A stretch of DNA of 49,670 nt from an uncultured Pelagibacteraceae bacterium (GTDB lineage: Bacteria; Pseudomonadota; Alphaproteobacteria; Pelagibacterales; Pelagibacteraceae). A program made the translations under genes and the position numbers. A model generated the notes under the pieces. That model had not been told where the DNA came from. It searched no databases and worked only from the letters and a program-made list of their open reading frames with translations. Of the stretch, positions 2,020 to 39,432 are shown one piece after another; position 1 is the stretch's first letter, and every line of letters starts with the position of its first letter. The DNA lies in the NCBI GenBank assembly GCA_902590625.1, contig CACIXL010000005.1, positions 1-49,670 of the forward strand, written 5' to 3'.

Positions 2020-4418
2020 TAATTACAATCCCGTGGTTAAAAGAGCATCTTAAAACATCAGCTAAAGAAAATGAGATTATTGATCGTCTTACAAATATCG
2101 GACTTGAAGTCGAAGGCTTAAAAGAAAACTCTGGAGAGATGAGCAAGTTTAAAATTGCGAAAGTTTTAAAAGCAGAAAAACATCCTAATGCTGATAAGTT
2201 AAAAGTTTGTGACGTTACTATCGGCGGGAAAGAGATTTTAAAAGTTGTATGTGGAGCTCCAAATGCCAGAGAAGGTCTAATCACAATCTATGCACCTCCT
2301 GGAGCTATAATACCTAAAACTAATTTTGAATTAAAGGTAGCTAAAATAAGAGGCGTTGAGTCGAAAGGGATGCTTTGCTCCGAGAGCGAACTTAATTTAT
2401 CTGAGGAAAGTGAAGGGATTATCGAACTTAAAAATAAAGAGAAAGAGATAGGAAAAAGCTATTTTAAAAGTAGCTCACAAAAAGCTATCGATATTTCTAT
2501 AACCCCTAATCGCGCCGATTGTTTAGGCGTTAGAGGGATTGCAAGAGATCTTTCATCTGCAGGAGTTGGAAAATTAATATCTATTAGTAGAAAAAAAATT
2601 AAACAAAATACAAAACACCAAATTAAAACTTCAATTACAAAAGAAAAGAATCAAGGGTGTGATATCTTCGGAAGCTGTTACATTAAAAACATTACTAATA
2701 AAGAAAGCCCTGAATGGCTTAAAAATAAATTAATCGCTTTAGGTTTAAAACCTATCTCTGCTGTAGTTGATATAACCAACTATGTCATGTTTGACCTTAA
2801 TAGACCATTGCATGCTTATGATGCAGATAAAATTAATAAAGAAATTATAGTTAGAAACGCCAAAGAAGGTGAGATGTTTGAGGCATTAGATAATAAAAAA
2901 TATAAATTAAAAAAAGACATGTGCGTTATCTCTGATAAATCTGGTGTTCTTGGGTTAGGTGGAATTATTGGAGGAACAACTACCTCAACTGAATTAGATA
3001 CAAAAAACATACTTTTAGAAGCTGCTTATTTCAGCCCATCTTCAATTAGAAAAACAGCTAGAGCGCTTAATATTAATACTGATGCGAAATATAGATTCGA
3101 GAGAGGAATTGACCCTAATTCAATCAAAGAGGGACTTGAACTTGCGACTGAAATGATTTTAAAAATTTGTGGCGGGGAAGCCAGCAAGTTTCAAATTACT
3201 GGAAAAATGAACCAAAAAAATAAGGTTATTAACTTTCAAGTGGAGAAATTTGAAAAGCTCATTGGTATTTCAATCACCGCTAACGAAATTGACAAAATTT
3301 TATCCTCTCTTGGTTTTAAATGTAAAAAAAGTCAAAAAGCTATAAAAGTGGAAGTTCCAAGCTGGCGGCCAGATGTGAGTTTGGACGAGGATTTGATTGA
3401 AGAACTAATTCGGATCAAAGGATTCAATAATATAAAATTAATTGAACCAAGCAGAAACAGGAACCAAGATACTCTCAACTTTAAGCAAAAATTATTCCAT
3501 TTATCACAGAGATCTTTAGCTTCGAAAGGCTATATGGAAATAGTCACTTGGTCTTTTACAGATTCAAAGATTGATAAACAATTTTCTAAAGGTGAAAAAG
3601 AAATACCAATATACAATCCTATTTCTTCTGATCTAGATGTTTTAAGACGATCAATTTTCTCTAATTTAGCAATATATTTAAAAAAGAATCAAGATAGAGG
3701 TTACGAAGACTTATCTCTATTTGAAATCGGCCCAACATTTTTTGGAAAAAACCCAGGCGAACAACAGATTGTTATCGGTGGTTTGAAATCTGGAAAAATA
3801 AACAGAAAGAGTTGGCTAGATAAGGAAAGAAATGTAGACGTTTTTGATATTAAAAGTGATGCTATTAAAACTTTAGTCGAACTTGGAATAGAAGAAAAAA
3901 ATCTTTTTGTAAGTGATAATACAAAGCACAGTTACCATCCAGGTAGATCAGGATCTATAACATTGAAATCAGAAAAAGGACACCATCTAGCCTATTTTGG
4001 AGAAATACATCCTGCAATTATTAAAAACTTAGATTGTAAAGATAAAAATATCTTTGGATTTGAAATATTTTTAAAAAACATCCCCGAACCAAACAAAAAA
4101 TTGAGACAAAGCAAAAAAAGTTTTCAAGCTTCAGATTATCAGAAATCAGAAAGAGATTTCGCTTTCGTGATAGATAAAATTTTTAAAATCGGTGCTCTAG
4201 AGAAAATTATTAGAGAAGTAGATGAAAATTTAATTCAAAATGTATCTACTTTCGATATTTATGAGGGAGAAAATATTCCAAAAGATAAAAAGTCAGTTGC
4301 GATTAATGTAACTTTACAGGCTATCGATAAAACTTTATCAGAAAATGATTTAGAAGATATCAGTAAAAAAATTATTGATACAGTAAGTAAAAAAACTGGC
4401 GCTTCAATTAGGTCCTAA
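2016..4418 (+). CDS. pheT: Phenylalanine--tRNA ligase beta subunit
   Basis: Length 800 is normal for bacterial PheT. The protein shows an N-terminal [12 protein letters not shown] segment, an OB-fold tRNA-binding domain at roughly 40-150 ([17 protein letters not shown]), the B3/B4 editing region in the first half, a B5 domain near 400-480, the catalytic-like core with a [10 protein letters not shown] segment, and a C-terminal ferredoxin-fold anticodon-binding domain from about 705. It supplies editing and tRNA recognition to PheS. It overlaps pheS by 4 bases and lepA by 1 (TAATG). Confidence 0.96.
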
Positions 4419-6226
4419 TGTCAGACATAAAAAGAATACGTAATTTTTCTATAATTGCACATATTGATCATGGTAAATCAACAATTGCAGATCGAATAAT
4501 TCATAAATGTGGAGGTTTAACCGATCGTGAAATGAAACAACAAGTCCTCGACTCAATGGATATTGAGAGAGAAAGAGGAATTACGATTAAAGCTCAAACA
4601 GTAAAACTCAACTATAAAGCAAAAGATGGTAAAGATTATATTTTAAATATTATTGATACCCCAGGCCACGTTGATTTTGGTTATGAGGTAAGCCGATCTT
4701 TATCAGCATGTGAGGGGTCCCTTTTGATTGTTGATAGCACACAAGGGGTAGAAGCTCAAACTTTAGCAAATGTTTATCAGGCTTTAGAAATTAATCACGA
4801 AGTTATACCAATTTTAAATAAAATAGATTTACCTGCCTCAGATATTGAAAAAACAAAAACAGAAATTGAGGATGTTGTAGGAATTGAAACGACGAATGCC
4901 ATTTCTTGTTCTGGAAAAACAGGAGAGGGTATAGATGAAATCTTAGAGGCGATTATTAACAAATTACCTGCTCCAAATGGGGATATTGAAGAAAAATTAA
5001 AATGTTTACTAGTGGATAGCTGGTATGACAGTTATCTTGGCGTAGTTATTCTTGTCAGAGTCATTAACGGTAAATTAAAAAAAAATATGAAAGTAAAATT
5101 AATGTCTAATGACCAAGAATATGAAATTGAAAAAGTAGGGGTATTCACTCCTAAACCAAATGATATTGAGGAATTAAGTTCTGGTGAAATTGGATTCATC
5201 ATTACAGGTATTAAATCGCTGTCCGAAACAAAAGTGGGAGACACTATTTGTGATGCAAATGCTCCAATAGATAAACCTTTACCAGGATTTAAACCGAGTA
5301 AACCTGTTGTATTTTGCGGCCTCTTTCCTGTCGATAGTTCCGAGTATCAAAAACTAAAAGATGGCTTAGCAAAATTAAAGCTTAATGATGCAAGTTTTTC
5401 TTATGAGCCTGAGTCATCTAGTGCCCTAGGATTGGGTTTTAGGTGTGGTTTTTTAGGATTACTACATTTAGAAATTATTACTGAAAGACTTGAAAGAGAG
5501 TTTGACGTTAATCTAATCACAACAACTCCAGGAGTAATTTATAAAGTTCATAAAACCAAAGGTGAGGTTCTGGACCTACAAAATCCTTCAAATATGCCAG
5601 ATCCATCTCAAATTGAAAAAATAGAAGAACCATGGATCAAGTCAACAATCATTACGCCAGACGAATACTTAGGATCAATTATAAAAATTTGTCAGGATAA
5701 AAGAGGAATACAAACTAATTTAAGCTACTCAGGTAAAAGAGCTGTTTTATCTTATGACCTACCATTAAATGAAGTTGTATTTGATTTTAATGATAAATTG
5801 AAATCTATCTCAAGCGGTTATGCAAGTTTTGATTATGAAATTTCTGGTTACAGGGAAGGTGACTTAGTTAAACTCGGTATCCTTGTAAACTCCGAACCTG
5901 TTGATGCACTAGCAATGATTATTCATAAAGATTTTGCACAAACTACTGGAAGACAAGTTTGTGAAAAATTAAAAGATTTAATACCAAGACATAATTTTAT
6001 GATTCCAGTCCAAGCTGCAATAGGTGGAAAAATTGTTGCTAGAGAGTCTATAAAAGGTTTCAAAAAAGATGTTTTAACTAAAATTCATGGCGGGGGCGCT
6101 ACTGATAGAAAAAGAAAACTTCTAGAAAAACAAAAAAAAGGTAAAGCAAGATCAAAACAGTTTGGTAAAGTTGAGATTCCTCAAGAGGCCTTCATTGGTG
6201 TTTTAAAAATTAATAAAGACGCATAA
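4418..6226 (+). CDS. lepA: Elongation factor 4 (back-translocating ribosomal GTPase LepA)
   Basis: A 602-residue translational GTPase, the usual LepA length. G-domain motifs are clear: P-loop AHIDHGKST (14-22), switch I RERGIT (51-56), DTPGH (80-84) and NKID (134-137). The EF-G-like domains II, III and V follow, then the LepA-specific C-terminal domain with [12 protein letters not shown] and [19 protein letters not shown] near residues 544-580. LepA acts on stalled or misassembled ribosomes at the membrane or in the cytoplasm. It is joined to pheT and to the following glycosyltransferase by 1-base TAATG overlaps. Confidence 0.96.
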
Positions 6227-7248
6227 TGAAAAAAAAATTATTTATTTTCTCAAATGAAAGTATTTCTATTGAAGACAATAAATACTATTGTGATAATCTA
6301 GATTTAAAATCAACTCCAGAAGGTTTAAATAAAAAATTTGAAGTAAATCTTCTTGGCAGAAAGTCATTAAAAAAAAGATCTCATGAAATAAAGTTAAAAA
6401 GAATAAAAGTATTCAATAATATTTTTTCTTATTTATCAGAGGTCAAAAATGCGTCAAAAAATTTAGATAGTAAATTTTTGATAATTTCGATTTCTCCTTA
6501 CACTTTCTTGATTTCTATATTTTTAAAAATTTTAGGACATAAACCTATCGTTTATTTGAGAAGTGATGGTTATGGTGAATACAAAGCAATTCTTGGTGGA
6601 ATTGGACCACTATTCTATCATTTTATGTTTGGTATTACCGGAGCGATTTCAAATTTAATAAGCTGTAGGGATTATATACTTCGTGGAAAAAAGGGAAAAC
6701 TTATAAGTCCATCTCAATTAGATTCGGTTTGGCTTAGACAACCAAAAAATATAGAAATTAAAAACTTTAAACTATTGTATGTAGGAAGAATTAGAGTTGA
6801 AAAAGGTGTTTTTGCCCTGTCTGAGTTGATTAGAAATAAAAGAGATATCTCTTTAACAATTATTGGCGCAGAAAAAGGAAGTTCTAATAAAATAAATCAA
6901 AGTAATATCAAAATTCTTCCCACACAAAGCAATAAAACTAAATTAATAAAACATTATGACGATCATAATATCTTTGTTTTACCCTCATTTACAGAAGGTC
7001 ATCCGATGGTTTTGTTAGAAGCTCTAGCAAGACGAAGGCCAGTAGTTATTTTTGACGAAATTAAACATGTAATAGGAGACAAAAAAGGGATTTTTGTTAC
7101 TAAAAGAAATTTTTTAAGTTTTTTGGGAACTTTGAATAATATTAAAAAAAGTTATAAAAAAATTCAAAAAGATATGAAAAAAAATAAGCTACCAACTAAT
7201 AAAGAGTTCATAGACAAATTCATCAAACTTATTGATGATTTTAAATAG
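6226..7248 (+). CDS. Glycosyltransferase, GT4-like (GT-B fold)
   Basis: A 340-residue protein with the C-terminal nucleotide-sugar-binding half typical of GT4 enzymes: [10 protein letters not shown] at 185-194 and [15 protein letters not shown] at 253-267, where the Glu residues normally contact the sugar nucleotide. The N-terminal half (acceptor side) is poorly conserved, so donor and acceptor cannot be named; a role in surface polysaccharide or lipid glycosylation is inference. No other polysaccharide gene is nearby, and the gene is appended to a translation operon by a TAATG overlap with lepA. Its TAG stop (7246-7248) shares its final G with the first base of tRNA-Ser. Confidence 0.8.
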
Positions 7249-7337
7249 GAGAGGTGGCCGAGTGGTTGAAGGCGCACGCTTGGAAAGCGTGTAAACGGGA
7301 AACCGTTTCGAGGGTTCGAATCCCTCTCTCTCCGCCA
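7248..7337 (+). tRNA. tRNA-Ser(GGA)
   Basis: A 90-base class II tRNA with an encoded CCA. The acceptor arm pairs GGAGAGG (7248-7254) with TCTCTCC and a G discriminator. The D-arm is GCC/GGC, and the anticodon stem CACGC/GCGTG closes the loop TTGGAAA with anticodon GGA, which reads UCC/UCU. There is a long variable arm and a normal T-arm GAGGG-TTCGAAT-CCCTC. Base 1 is the last base of the upstream glycosyltransferase TAG stop codon. Confidence 0.97.
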
Positions 7338-35945: not shown

Positions 35946-36389
35946 ATGGAGCCAAAAAATTTAAAACTAATCGCTAGAACAGAAGCGGATCTGAGAGTTG
36001 TCTCTGCACATCTCCAAGACTCAATTGCAAGCGTTGCTGACATTGCAAATTTAAAAAAAAACAAGATTTTTCTTATGCAACTTAACCGTTTTATGTGGGA
36101 AGATGTTGAAAAAGGTGTGTTTCGTAAGAATAAACGAATTAGAACTATCTTAAAATTTGAGAACGTAATGAATGTACTATCACGAAATATTAATCAGCTT
36201 AAAAAAGATAAGTTTTTAGATTTTCTAGCTATTGAAACAAATATTACTCCTGATAAAAACTATGAGATGAAAATAATTTTTGCTGGTGATGCAATAATTA
36301 GAATTATCTCTGAGGTTATTGAAGTAACTTTAGATGATCAGGGAGAAGCATGGGACACAAAAAATAAACCAACACATAAAAGCTTATAA
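35946..36389 (+). CDS. DUF2948 family protein
   Basis: A 147-residue protein of the alphaproteobacterial DUF2948 family, recognised from TEADLRVVSAHLQDSIASVAD (residues 13-33), the NRFMWED segment and the RIRTILKFENVMNVLSRNI core. It characteristically sits between murA and hisD, as here. The function is unknown. It starts one base after murA and overlaps hisD by one base. Confidence 0.88.
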   Translation: MEPKNLKLIARTEADLRVVSAHLQDSIASVADIANLKKNKIFLMQLNRFMWEDVEKGVFRKNKRIRTILKFENVMNVLSRNINQLKKDKFLDFLAIETNITPDKNYEMKIIFAGDAIIRIISEVIEVTLDDQGEAWDTKNKPTHKSL

Positions 36390-37696
36390 TGTTAAAAATA
36401 TTAAAACTTGATAATAAAAAATCTTTAAAAACTTTAAAACTATTTTTAGATAAAAGAAAGTCTATACAAAAGGATCAAACCAAAATTGTAAGTAAAATAA
36501 TAAAAAATGTAAAAAAAAATGGGGACAAAGCAGTTTTAAATTATGAAAAAAGATTTTCTAAAATTAAAACAAGATCTAATAAACTTCAGTTATCAGTTAA
36601 AGAAATCAATAAAATTTCTAATAGAACAGATGCAATTTTAAAAAAATCAATTGATTTAGCCTATAAAAGGATAAAAAAATTTCACTCAAAGCAAAAATTT
36701 TCATCTTTTAAATTTAAGGATAAGTACAAGAATGTTCTATCTTATAAGTATTCTCCATTAGAAAAAGTTGGCGTTTATGTACCAGGAGGTACAGCAAGTT
36801 ATCCAAGCACAGTTTTAATGAATTGTATCCCGGCTATAGTGGCTGGAGTAAAAAATATATACCTAACCACTCCATCTTTAAACTCTAAAATCAATCCTGC
36901 AATAGTTTATGCAGCTAAAAAATGTGGCGTAAAAAAAATTTATAAAACTGGAGGCGCTCAGACTATCGCAGCACTTGCTTATGGAACCAAGAAATTTGAA
37001 AAAGTTGATAAGATAGTTGGCCCTGGAAACGCTTTTGTAGCTTGTGCTAAAAAAGAGGTTTTCGGAGACGTAGGAATTGATATGGTTGCTGGTCCTTCCG
37101 AAGTTAGCATTGTTGCAGACAAGTATGCTGATCCAAATTTTGTTGCTGCAGACTTAATAGCTCAAGCAGAACACGATGTTAACGCTCAATCAATATTGAT
37201 TACAAGTGATAAAAATTTAATTAAATTAGTAAATATATCTTTAAAAAAACAAATTAAGACATTGCCAAAAAAAAATATTGCCTCTCAAAGTTTAAAAAAT
37301 TTTGGTTTAGCTATTTTAGCTAAAAATAAAAAAAATATTTTAGAAGCTATTAACACTATTGCTCCTGAACATTTAGAGCTTTGTACTAATAAGAATGATG
37401 ATATTATTAAAGGTATTAAAAATGCCGGATCAATTTTTATTGGTAAATTTTCCCCAGAGGCTATTGGTGATTATATAGCTGGCCCTAACCATGTGTTACC
37501 CACATCAGGCTCAGCAAGATTTTCATCCGGTCTATCTGTTAACGATTTTTTAAAGCGACACTCTCTTATAAAAATAACAAAAACAGGTATTGAAAGATTA
37601 GGATCATCGGTTATAAATTTAGCGATGCATGAAAATTTAGATGGACATGCTAATTCAGTAAAAATGAGATTAAAAAAAGGAAAATTAATTGGCTAA
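36389..37696 (+). CDS. hisD: Histidinol dehydrogenase
   Basis: A 435-residue Zn2+ enzyme that performs the last two oxidations of histidine synthesis. It contains [19 protein letters not shown] near 129-147, [32 protein letters not shown] near 234-243, and AEHD near 260 with likely zinc-ligand and catalytic residues. The length is normal (about 430). It overlaps the TTG start of infA by 8 bases. Confidence 0.96.
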
Positions 37697-37904
37697 ACAA
37701 GAAACTTTAGAATTTAAGGGAAAAGTAACTGAACTGCTTCCCAACGCAATGTTTAGAGTAAAGCTTGAAAATAACCACGAAATTTTAGCTCACACAGCTG
37801 GAAAATTAAGAAAGAATAGAATTAGAGTTCTTGCTGGAGATAATGTAATGGTTGAAATGACGCCATATGATTTAACTAAAGGTAGAATTACTTTTAGATT
37901 TTAG
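37689..37904 (+). CDS. infA: Translation initiation factor IF-1
   Basis: A 71-residue OB-fold protein that occupies the 30S A site during initiation. It reads [20 protein letters not shown], then [20 protein letters not shown], and ends GRITFRF, as in standard IF-1. The start codon is TTG, located inside the end of hisD. The TAG stop (37902-37904) shares its final G with base 1 of tRNA-Phe. A rare start codon and a stop that tRNA processing would cut both suggest tightly limited expression. Confidence 0.95.
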
Positions 37905-37978
37905 GCCTTGTAGCTCAGTAGTAGAGCAGTACCCTGAAAAGGTATGTGTCGTAAGTGCGATTCTTACCAAGGCCACCA
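37904..37978 (+). tRNA. tRNA-Phe(GAA), with atypical D- and T-loops
   Basis: A 75-base tRNA with an encoded CCA. The acceptor GGCCTTG/CAAGGCC pairs perfectly (7 bp) with discriminator A. The D-stem is GCTC/GAGC with a 7-base loop AGTAGTA. The anticodon stem GTACC/GGTAT closes CTGAAAA (anticodon GAA). The T-arm is GTAAG-TGCGATT-CTTAC. Position 55, almost always U (pseudouridine), is G, and the D-loop lacks the usual G18-G19 pair. Base 1 is the last base of the infA stop codon. Confidence 0.95.
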
Positions 37979-38031
37979 CCTACAAGTTTAACACATCGAA
38001 AAATAAAAATTTATCTGATAATTATTTAATT

Positions 38032-39432
38032 ATGAATAAAAAGATCGGACTTTTTTGGTTAAGAGATGATTTTAGACTTGTCAAAAATCATGGACTTATA
38101 GATGCCACCATAAATCATGATCAAGTTGTTGTTTTTTATCTTTATAAACAGAGTATCTATAAAGACCAAGAGGCGCAAAAATGGTGGTTAAGTAGATCAC
38201 TTATAAATTTTAAAGAAAAATTAAATAATTTAAATATTACTCTTGAAATAGTAGAGATTAATTCTTTTAAAATTTTCTTTGATAAATTAATAAAAAATAA
38301 AGATTTCGCTATATATTGGAATAAGGTTTATGAGCCCGACTATCTAAAATTTGACGAATATTTGCTAAGAAATTTTGAAAATAAAAATATTTACCACAAA
38401 AGATTTAAAGGAAATGCTCTTAATGAAATAAATGAAATTAAGAAAAACGATGGTACCCCATTTAAGGTATTCACACCTTTCTGGAGAACAGCGGAAAAAC
38501 ATTATATTGAAAAAATACCAACAAAAGAGAAAGTTATAAAAAAATGTAAAAAAAAATTAAGTTATTTTAAAAATCAGATCAAGCCAGAAAAAATATTACC
38601 TAGAAATAATTGGTTCAAAAATTTTGAGAAAATCTGGTTTCCTGATGAAAAAATAGCTTTAAAAGAATTGCAAAATTTTATTGAAGCAAGAATTTCTAAT
38701 TATTCCGAAGGTCGAAATTTTCCAAATATAGTTGGGACATCAAAATTATCTCCATTTATAAAATTTGGTCATCTTCATGTAGAAACTATTTGGAATGAAT
38801 GTATTAAAAAAAAATCTAAGACCGTAGGAACCACAAAATTTCTAGCTGAAATTGGATGGCGAGAATTTAATCACTCTTTAATAAATCACTTTCCACATAT
38901 GTTAAAAAATAATTACTCGAAAAAATTTGATAAATTTCCATGGGAAAAAAATCCTAAATTTTTAAAAGCTTGGAAAAAAGGTTTGACCGGTTATCCAATC
39001 GTTGATGCCGGGATGAGAGAGCTTTATTCTACTGGATGGATGCACAACAGAGTGAGAATGATAGTTGGCTCATTTTTAGTAAAACATTTATTAATTAATT
39101 GGAAAGAAGGTGAAAAATATTTTAAAAACTGCTTATTAGATTATAGTCCGGCTAGTAATGTTGCCGGTTGGCAATGGGTTGCGGGCAGTGGAGCAGATGC
39201 AGCTCCTTATTTTAGAATATTTAATCCAATTTTACAGGGAGAGAAATTTGATAAAGAGGGAGATTATGTGAAAAAATGGGTACCCGAATTAAAAAATTTA
39301 TCAAAAAAATTTATTCATAAACCTTGGGAATTTAAAAATGAAAAATTTAAATTAGGAAGAGATTATCCATATCCTATAGTAAAGCACGAGGAAGCTAGAG
39401 CAAAAGCTTTAAATGCTTTTAAAAAAATTTAA
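38032..39432 (+). CDS. Deoxyribodipyrimidine photolyase
   Basis: A 466-residue cryptochrome/photolyase-family protein. The N-terminal Rossmann domain starts LFWLRDDFRLVKNHGL, and the C-terminal FAD-binding helical domain contains EIGWREFNHSLINHFPHM, GYPIVDAGMRELYSTGWMHN and NVAGWQWVAGSGADAAPY (about 375-392). These residues fit the class I CPD photolyase group and light-driven repair of UV dimers, suitable for a surface-ocean cell. A (6-4) or cryptochrome-type function cannot be excluded. It follows tRNA-Phe by 53 bases and converges on secA with one base between stops. Confidence 0.9.
   Translation: MNKKIGLFWLRDDFRLVKNHGLIDATINHDQVVVFYLYKQSIYKDQEAQKWWLSRSLINFKEKLNNLNITLEIVEINSFKIFFDKLIKNKDFAIYWNKVYEPDYLKFDEYLLRNFENKNIYHKRFKGNALNEINEIKKNDGTPFKVFTPFWRTAEKHYIEKIPTKEKVIKKCKKKLSYFKNQIKPEKILPRNNWFKNFEKIWFPDEKIALKELQNFIEARISNYSEGRNFPNIVGTSKLSPFIKFGHLHVETIWNECIKKKSKTVGTTKFLAEIGWREFNHSLINHFPHMLKNNYSKKFDKFPWEKNPKFLKAWKKGLTGYPIVDAGMRELYSTGWMHNRVRMIVGSFLVKHLLINWKEGEKYFKNCLLDYSPASNVAGWQWVAGSGADAAPYFRIFNPILQGEKFDKEGDYVKKWVPELKNLSKKFIHKPWEFKNEKFKLGRDYPYPIVKHEEARAKALNAFKKI

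Follow-up and report, generated by a model that had tools for sequence, protein, structure and literature searches.

The infA stop codon and tRNA-Phe share one base in a genus of SAR11 bacteria

How is translation terminated when the last base of a stop codon is also the first base of a tRNA? This question is raised by a stretch of 49,670 nucleotides (hereafter the window) from an uncultured Pelagibacteraceae bacterium (assembly GCA_902590625.1, contig CACIXL010000005.1, positions 1 to 49,670 of the forward strand), in which infA, encoding IF-1, runs into the gene for tRNA-Phe. The features of this junction are the following:

36389..37696, + strand, hisD (histidinol dehydrogenase), upstream of infA (open reading frame; Pfam PF00815, E 9.3e-164)
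37689..37904, + strand, infA (IF-1), TTG start and TAG stop (Pfam PF01176, E 4.1e-26)
37876..37897, + strand, RNA hairpin CUAAAGGUA-GAAU-UACUUUUAG over infA codons 63-70 (folding and synonymous-site tests)
37904, + strand, shared base, third of the infA stop codon and first of tRNA-Phe
37904..37978, + strand, tRNA-Phe(GAA) with encoded CCA (ARAGORN; Rfam RF00005)
38032..39432, + strand, DNA photolyase family gene, 3' of tRNA-Phe (open reading frame and Pfam)

A junction shared by translation and tRNA processing

In the window, infA comprises 71 codons and ends with a TAG at 37902-37904. Two methods (ARAGORN and the Rfam RF00005 match) place the 5' end of tRNA-Phe at 37904, and the final G of the infA stop is G1 of the tRNA. 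A preliminary description of this DNA had proposed this shared base, together with a perfectly paired acceptor stem and a TTG start of infA inside hisD, and all three observations are confirmed well beyond the window. Indeed, the acceptor GGCCTTG/CAAGGCC, followed by A and the encoded CCA, is identical in the 113 overlap loci free of N or truncation, and the TTG start within hisD is present in 115/115 overlap genomes, the deeper SAR11 relatives read having an ATG start. At this 5' end, infA overlaps hisD by 8 bases (37689-37696), and hisD and the two open reading frames preceding it are tightly packed, end against end. The window's own assembly (G000), which is incomplete (69.61% complete), contains a single infA and a single tRNA-Phe among the 12 tRNAs found. 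A genome of the same genus that is 95% complete yielded 25 tRNAs with a single tRNA-Phe among them, so that this tRNA presumably has to be processed in every cell.

Regarding transcription, the region 37500-38150 has one weak promoter-like match (37590-37619, inside hisD; mean of 2.6 in shuffled sequences) and yielded no terminator-like site. Since, in addition, the genes abut or overlap, infA and tRNA-Phe are likely carried by one transcript. RNase P cutting such a transcript 5' of G1 would leave an infA mRNA ending in UA without a stop codon, a deduction of the preliminary description that is sound, and one RNA molecule cannot yield both the mature tRNA and the complete message. Of 31 genomes of the genus, many of them incomplete, 21 have an Alpha tmRNA match (RF01849) over the cut-off, the window's own included, so that rescue of nonstop infA RNA would be available.

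As a side observation, infA has UUU as its final sense codon (37899-37901; TTT in 108 of the 115 overlap genomes), which is decoded by the very tRNA-Phe encoded immediately downstream. This final codon was probably inherited from ancestors, and it could couple the supply of tRNA-Phe to the position of the ribosome over the tRNA.

Distribution of the overlap and of similar junctions

infA and the tRNA following it were read in 219 loci of the order, the sister-genus part being a subset of the matching genomes. In the window's genus (g1), with two genomes left out for having an infA match without a listed place (G163 and G237), the overlap is found at exactly -1 with a TAG stop in 114 of 125 loci, which argues against chance. 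One more locus (L094) has the same letters on a contig ending inside the tRNA and is counted with them, giving 115 overlap loci; eleven named public contigs (L002-L012) carry the same overlap, at least some of them being the same genomes as other loci. The overlap is absent in 10 of the 125 loci, three having a spacer of +8 with a TGA or TAA stop and seven a TAA stop without adjacent tRNA-Phe. Among these seven, tRNA-Phe lies 85 bases downstream of infA in L170 and 1003 bases downstream in L085, with a 308-codon frame between; in the other five no tRNA-Phe was found within the 797 bases read, which contain frames of 145 to 260 codons.

In six g1 loci (L085, L174, L181, L189, L209 and L218), infA ends with a complete TAA and is followed by other genes, which we take to be methyltransferase-like, sulfotransferase-like and others. 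In L085 such a gene stands between infA and tRNA-Phe, and in the remaining five the stretch read ends before any tRNA-Phe. The 3' junction of infA may be an insertion site.

A comparison with other SAR11 genomes, suggested in the preliminary description as a check, gave a divided answer: the overlap is kept within g1 and is absent from 80/80 loci of the sister genera g2, g3, g4 and g14. In these, tRNA-Phe is adjacent to infA with a spacer of 1-8 in 18/19 g2 loci, 3-7 in 6/6 g3 loci, 1-8 in 51/54 g4 loci (the remaining three being 13, 18 and 40) and 5 in the single g14 locus. In the deeper groups (g5, g9, g12 and f2), no tRNA-Phe was found within 20 bases of infA in 14/14 loci, and in each of the five such genomes inspected, a Maf-like open reading frame (presumably maf, from its SASPRR motif) separates the two genes. 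In other alphaproteobacteria, tRNA-Phe is 883-2453 bases downstream of infA in 35/61 loci, and in the other 26 none was found within the stretch read. The IF-1 frame is 72 codons long in the 14 deeper loci, compared with 71 in g1, and in the genera without an intervening gene infA is mostly one codon shorter and 1-8 bases from the tRNA. With deeper relatives carrying a Maf-like frame between infA and tRNA-Phe, the overlap appears to have arisen by compaction. Judging from these arrangements, infA most likely reached tRNA-Phe by loss of the intervening DNA and of one codon, the g1 junction having closed later. In a hisD-infA tree of 216 loci, five g3 genomes and the +8 group fall among g1, with mixed and often low support.

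Sharing of a stop codon with a tRNA is not restricted to infA, a second case, which the preliminary description does not mention, being present in the window:

4418..6226, + strand, open reading frame that we take to be lepA, upstream of this second case
6226..7248, + strand, group 1 glycosyltransferase gene of 340 aa with a TAG stop (PF00534)
7248..7337, + strand, tRNA-Ser(GGA) (ARAGORN; Rfam)

Here, the G of the glycosyltransferase TAG is G1 of tRNA-Ser(GGA). The glycosyltransferase has matches in 146/169 g1 genomes, 70 of which were read (71 loci, G027 twice, with the closest matches over-represented): the overlap is exactly -1 in 30 of these genomes by ARAGORN, tRNA-Ser is 0 to 39 bases off in 16, and no tRNA was found in the stretch read in 24. 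This junction varies more across g1 (-1, 0, +2 and more) than that of infA. Among adjacent g1 junctions, 115/118 are at -1 for infA (L094 included) vs 30/46 for the glycosyltransferase, figures uncorrected for ancestry and recombination; the infA overlap hence seems to be fixed more firmly than drift alone would lead one to expect, which counts against pure streamlining.

A deeper intrusion is found for recJ, identified by its RecJ_OB, DHH and DHHA1 domains. In 5/5 g1 genomes (L146 2-1575; L429-L433), its stop codon lies 22 bases into tRNA-Glu(TTC), which encodes the C-terminal VPSSIG and the stop, while a spacer of 45-78 separates the two genes in 25/25 loci of g5, g9, g12 and f2, the groups covered by this comparison. 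Overlap where relatives keep spacers or intervening genes, as streamlining predicts, is thus found for both infA and recJ. Moreover, in the g1 genome G036 a 262-codon frame stops at a TAG on positions 8-10 of tRNA-Val. In total, the stop of the upstream gene is borne by 4/25 tRNAs in G036 and by 3/12 in the incomplete G000, and by none of the 30 tRNAs (of 33 matches) considered in the complete g4 genome G003, where a 70-aa frame ending 29 bases into tRNA-Gly(tcc) was discarded as a chance frame. In the GC-rich relative Jiella (G466), several frames run into tRNAs, chance long frames being common there. Altogether, this sharing looks like a general packing effect, wider than infA, and points to streamlining and not to a dedicated control of IF-1.

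A constrained hairpin at the 3' end of infA

The hairpin, which the preliminary description does not mention, ends 6 bases 5' of G1 of tRNA-Phe, in the part of infA where synonymous variation is most limited. Relative to the gene's codon use, the synonymous entropy ratio is lowest over codons 59-71 (mean 0.62), being 0.74 for codons 31-45 and 0.85-1.12 in other blocks. In a sample of 60 of the 115 loci, codons 62-71 have a mean folding energy of -6.35 vs -2.83 kcal/mol in synonymous nulls; 11% of the null draws match or exceed this stability, compared with 37-68% for the six other segments of infA in the same loci, and a stricter within-gene codon permutation gives p < 0.05 in 35/114 loci (median 0.089), all these values coming from related, non-independent sequences and not being probabilities. 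In g2, energies are similar and the signal is weaker (-6.20 vs -3.23; 22% of draws). The permutation p is below 0.05 in 5/19 g2, 3/6 g3 and 6/51 g4 loci, and the synonymous-null folding test gave no hairpin signal in g4 and the deeper groups.

Individual codons follow the same trend. Thr68 is ACT or ACC in 115/115 overlap loci, both able to pair with G, unlike Thr6, 14, 36 and 58, for which the commonest codon, when pooled, is ACA; Phe69 is TTT in 114/115. The GGT codon of Gly65, which forms an inner pair, is present in 89/115 overlap genomes vs 0/10 g1 genomes without overlap (Fisher p 1.4e-6, uncorrected for ancestry). Regarding the presence of the tRNA, the hairpin is weaker than that of the nearest overlap relative in 6/7 g1 genomes without adjacent tRNA-Phe, by less than 1 kcal/mol in two of the six, and stronger in the seventh (G365), whose tRNA-Phe is 1003 bases off. 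It is weaker as well in the three +8 g1 genomes, in which the tRNA is near (-4.2 to -4.6 vs -7.4).

These data suggest that the junction has a function under selection, and count against pure streamlining. Our best guess is that the hairpin acts at the 3' end that cleavage leaves on infA RNA.

Two other proposals were considered and rejected. A role as insulator of tRNA folding is not supported by the acceptor-stem probability, which is 0.896 for real leaders vs 0.906 in synonymous-codon nulls (50/113 loci sampled), leader:tRNA mispairing being slightly lower than in the null (below the null mean in 36/50 loci). Nor are leader hairpins general at SAR11 tRNAs: mean z is 0.07 in G000 (12 tRNAs), 0.25 in G036 (25) and -0.29 in G003 (30), vs 0.22, 0.23 and -0.52 for the respective control stretches 100 bases further upstream. 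At the glycosyltransferase/tRNA-Ser junction, a hairpin is seen in the window and is non-significant over 29 overlap loci defined by letter pattern (30 by ARAGORN), the null being at least as stable in 42% of draws.

Tolerated streamlining, its rivals and known systems

The reading that we favor, with a probability of roughly 0.6, is that genome streamlining by deletion produced the overlap and that the cell tolerates it. In Ca. P. ubique, the median intergenic length is 3 (PMC2704228). infA and tRNA-Phe would be transcribed together, and IF-1 would be made on nascent or uncleaved RNA, the ribosome reading UAG by melting the start of tRNA-Phe. The tRNA would then fold and RNase P would cut, converting the infA part into nonstop RNA, which would decay or be removed by tmRNA as a backstop. 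Each transcript would thus be translated before cleavage and give its tRNA afterwards, termination and tRNA maturation being mutually exclusive at any moment on one molecule, and the cost to the cell would be a small loss of yield only. The hairpin probably shapes the 3' end or the processing of infA RNA.

The preliminary description had gone further, suggesting that the supply of IF-1 could be tied to tRNA processing. RNase P cleavage would create nonstop infA mRNA, a race between the ribosome and tRNA maturation would set the level of IF-1, and tmRNA would degrade the product. The fixity of the overlap in g1, the presence of tmRNA, the constrained hairpin at the junction and the invariant TTG start all speak for such a control. 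However, infA of the sister genera mostly has a complete stop codon beside this very tRNA, the glycosyltransferase and recJ share their stops in a similar manner, as expected from general packing, and ten g1 loci do without the overlap. The proposed tie is therefore unsupported, and we consider a regulatory reading of the overlap, which we do not favor, unlikely. Tolerated streamlining is preferred over it because unrelated genes share their stops in the same way and sister-genus loci lack the overlap. Distinctly unlikely, in our opinion, is that no conflict exists, most tRNA-Phe arising from a promoter within hisD or infA while the full-length transcripts of infA stay mostly unprocessed. The weak match inside hisD and a TATGAT hexamer in infA codons 60-61 would be candidates for such a promoter. 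However, the promoter-like matches are fewer than the shuffle mean, and the hexamer is not supported as an embedded promoter, since it just encodes a Tyr-Asp pair and is not kept: of the 115 overlap loci, 63 have TAT at codon 60 and 52 have TAC. Moreover, infA transcripts that extend into the tRNA would be cleavable all the same.

Finally, the cleaved infA mRNA (hairpin-AUUUUA) might gain one A to give UAA, the hairpin protecting its end, so that the message works, as in mitochondria. In both -1 overlaps, those of infA and of the glycosyltransferase, UA directly precedes the tRNA; the hairpin is constrained in g1, has similar energy in g2 and is weaker in most g1 genomes without adjacent tRNA-Phe. 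However, bacterial A-tails usually promote decay, the +8 genomes have weaker hairpins with the tRNA near, and G365 has a strong one with the tRNA far away. For recJ, geometry excludes such a repair, as six codons, the last base of the seventh and the stop would all be lost. We regard completion by adenylation as very improbable, and its genus-wide form, in which RNase P takes the last stop base of a few g1 genes and the hairpin-guarded infA mRNA is adenylated to a working UAA, as most improbable. Were it true, the tRNA punctuation of mitochondria would have a counterpart in bacteria.

This junction is a natural, genus-wide case of one nucleotide having to serve both translation termination and a mature tRNA end in a free-living bacterium. 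It could be used to test how much loss of stop codons a cell can bear, whether translation or tRNA processing comes first, and whether organelles are the only place for tRNA punctuation. Gene-calling programs forbidding overlaps between coding sequences and tRNAs may also mis-call such ends.

Among the top-ranked papers of the open-access literature searched, no description was found of a bacterial gene whose stop codon is finished by a tRNA gene. The junction resembles the short co-directional stop/start overlaps of streamlined bacteria, in which neighbors share bases after compaction; in infA, however, the partner is a tRNA gene and RNA processing should remove the shared stop. Another likeness is with E. 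coli ArfA, whose mRNA is cleaved to a nonstop form that tmRNA then deals with (PMC3985003), as cleavage of infA before its stop would likewise give a nonstop mRNA for tmRNA, which is present in g1. However, ArfA mRNA is cut by RNase III in a regulatory process, whereas the cutter of infA would be RNase P and its regulation is hypothetical. By our own yardstick, an ArfA-like device should be confined to the gene that it regulates and shared by relatives, and the infA overlap is neither.

The last comparison is with mitochondrial tRNA punctuation. According to PMC9674279, six human mitochondrial mRNAs abut tRNAs and need cleavage and adenylation for their stop, and, for MT-ND1, a fragment of the flanking tRNA supplies the in-frame stop without lengthening the protein. 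A frame abutting a tRNA that supplies the end of its stop is found in the window for infA (TA/G of tRNA-Phe) and for the glycosyltransferase (TA/G of tRNA-Ser). In contrast with mitochondria, the SAR11 host is free-living and has tmRNA, only a few genes are affected, the DNA encodes a complete stop once the tRNA base is counted, and adenylation at infA is hypothetical. Human MT-ND1/tRNA-Ile, in which the frame runs into the tRNA as in infA, is the closest match in geometry.
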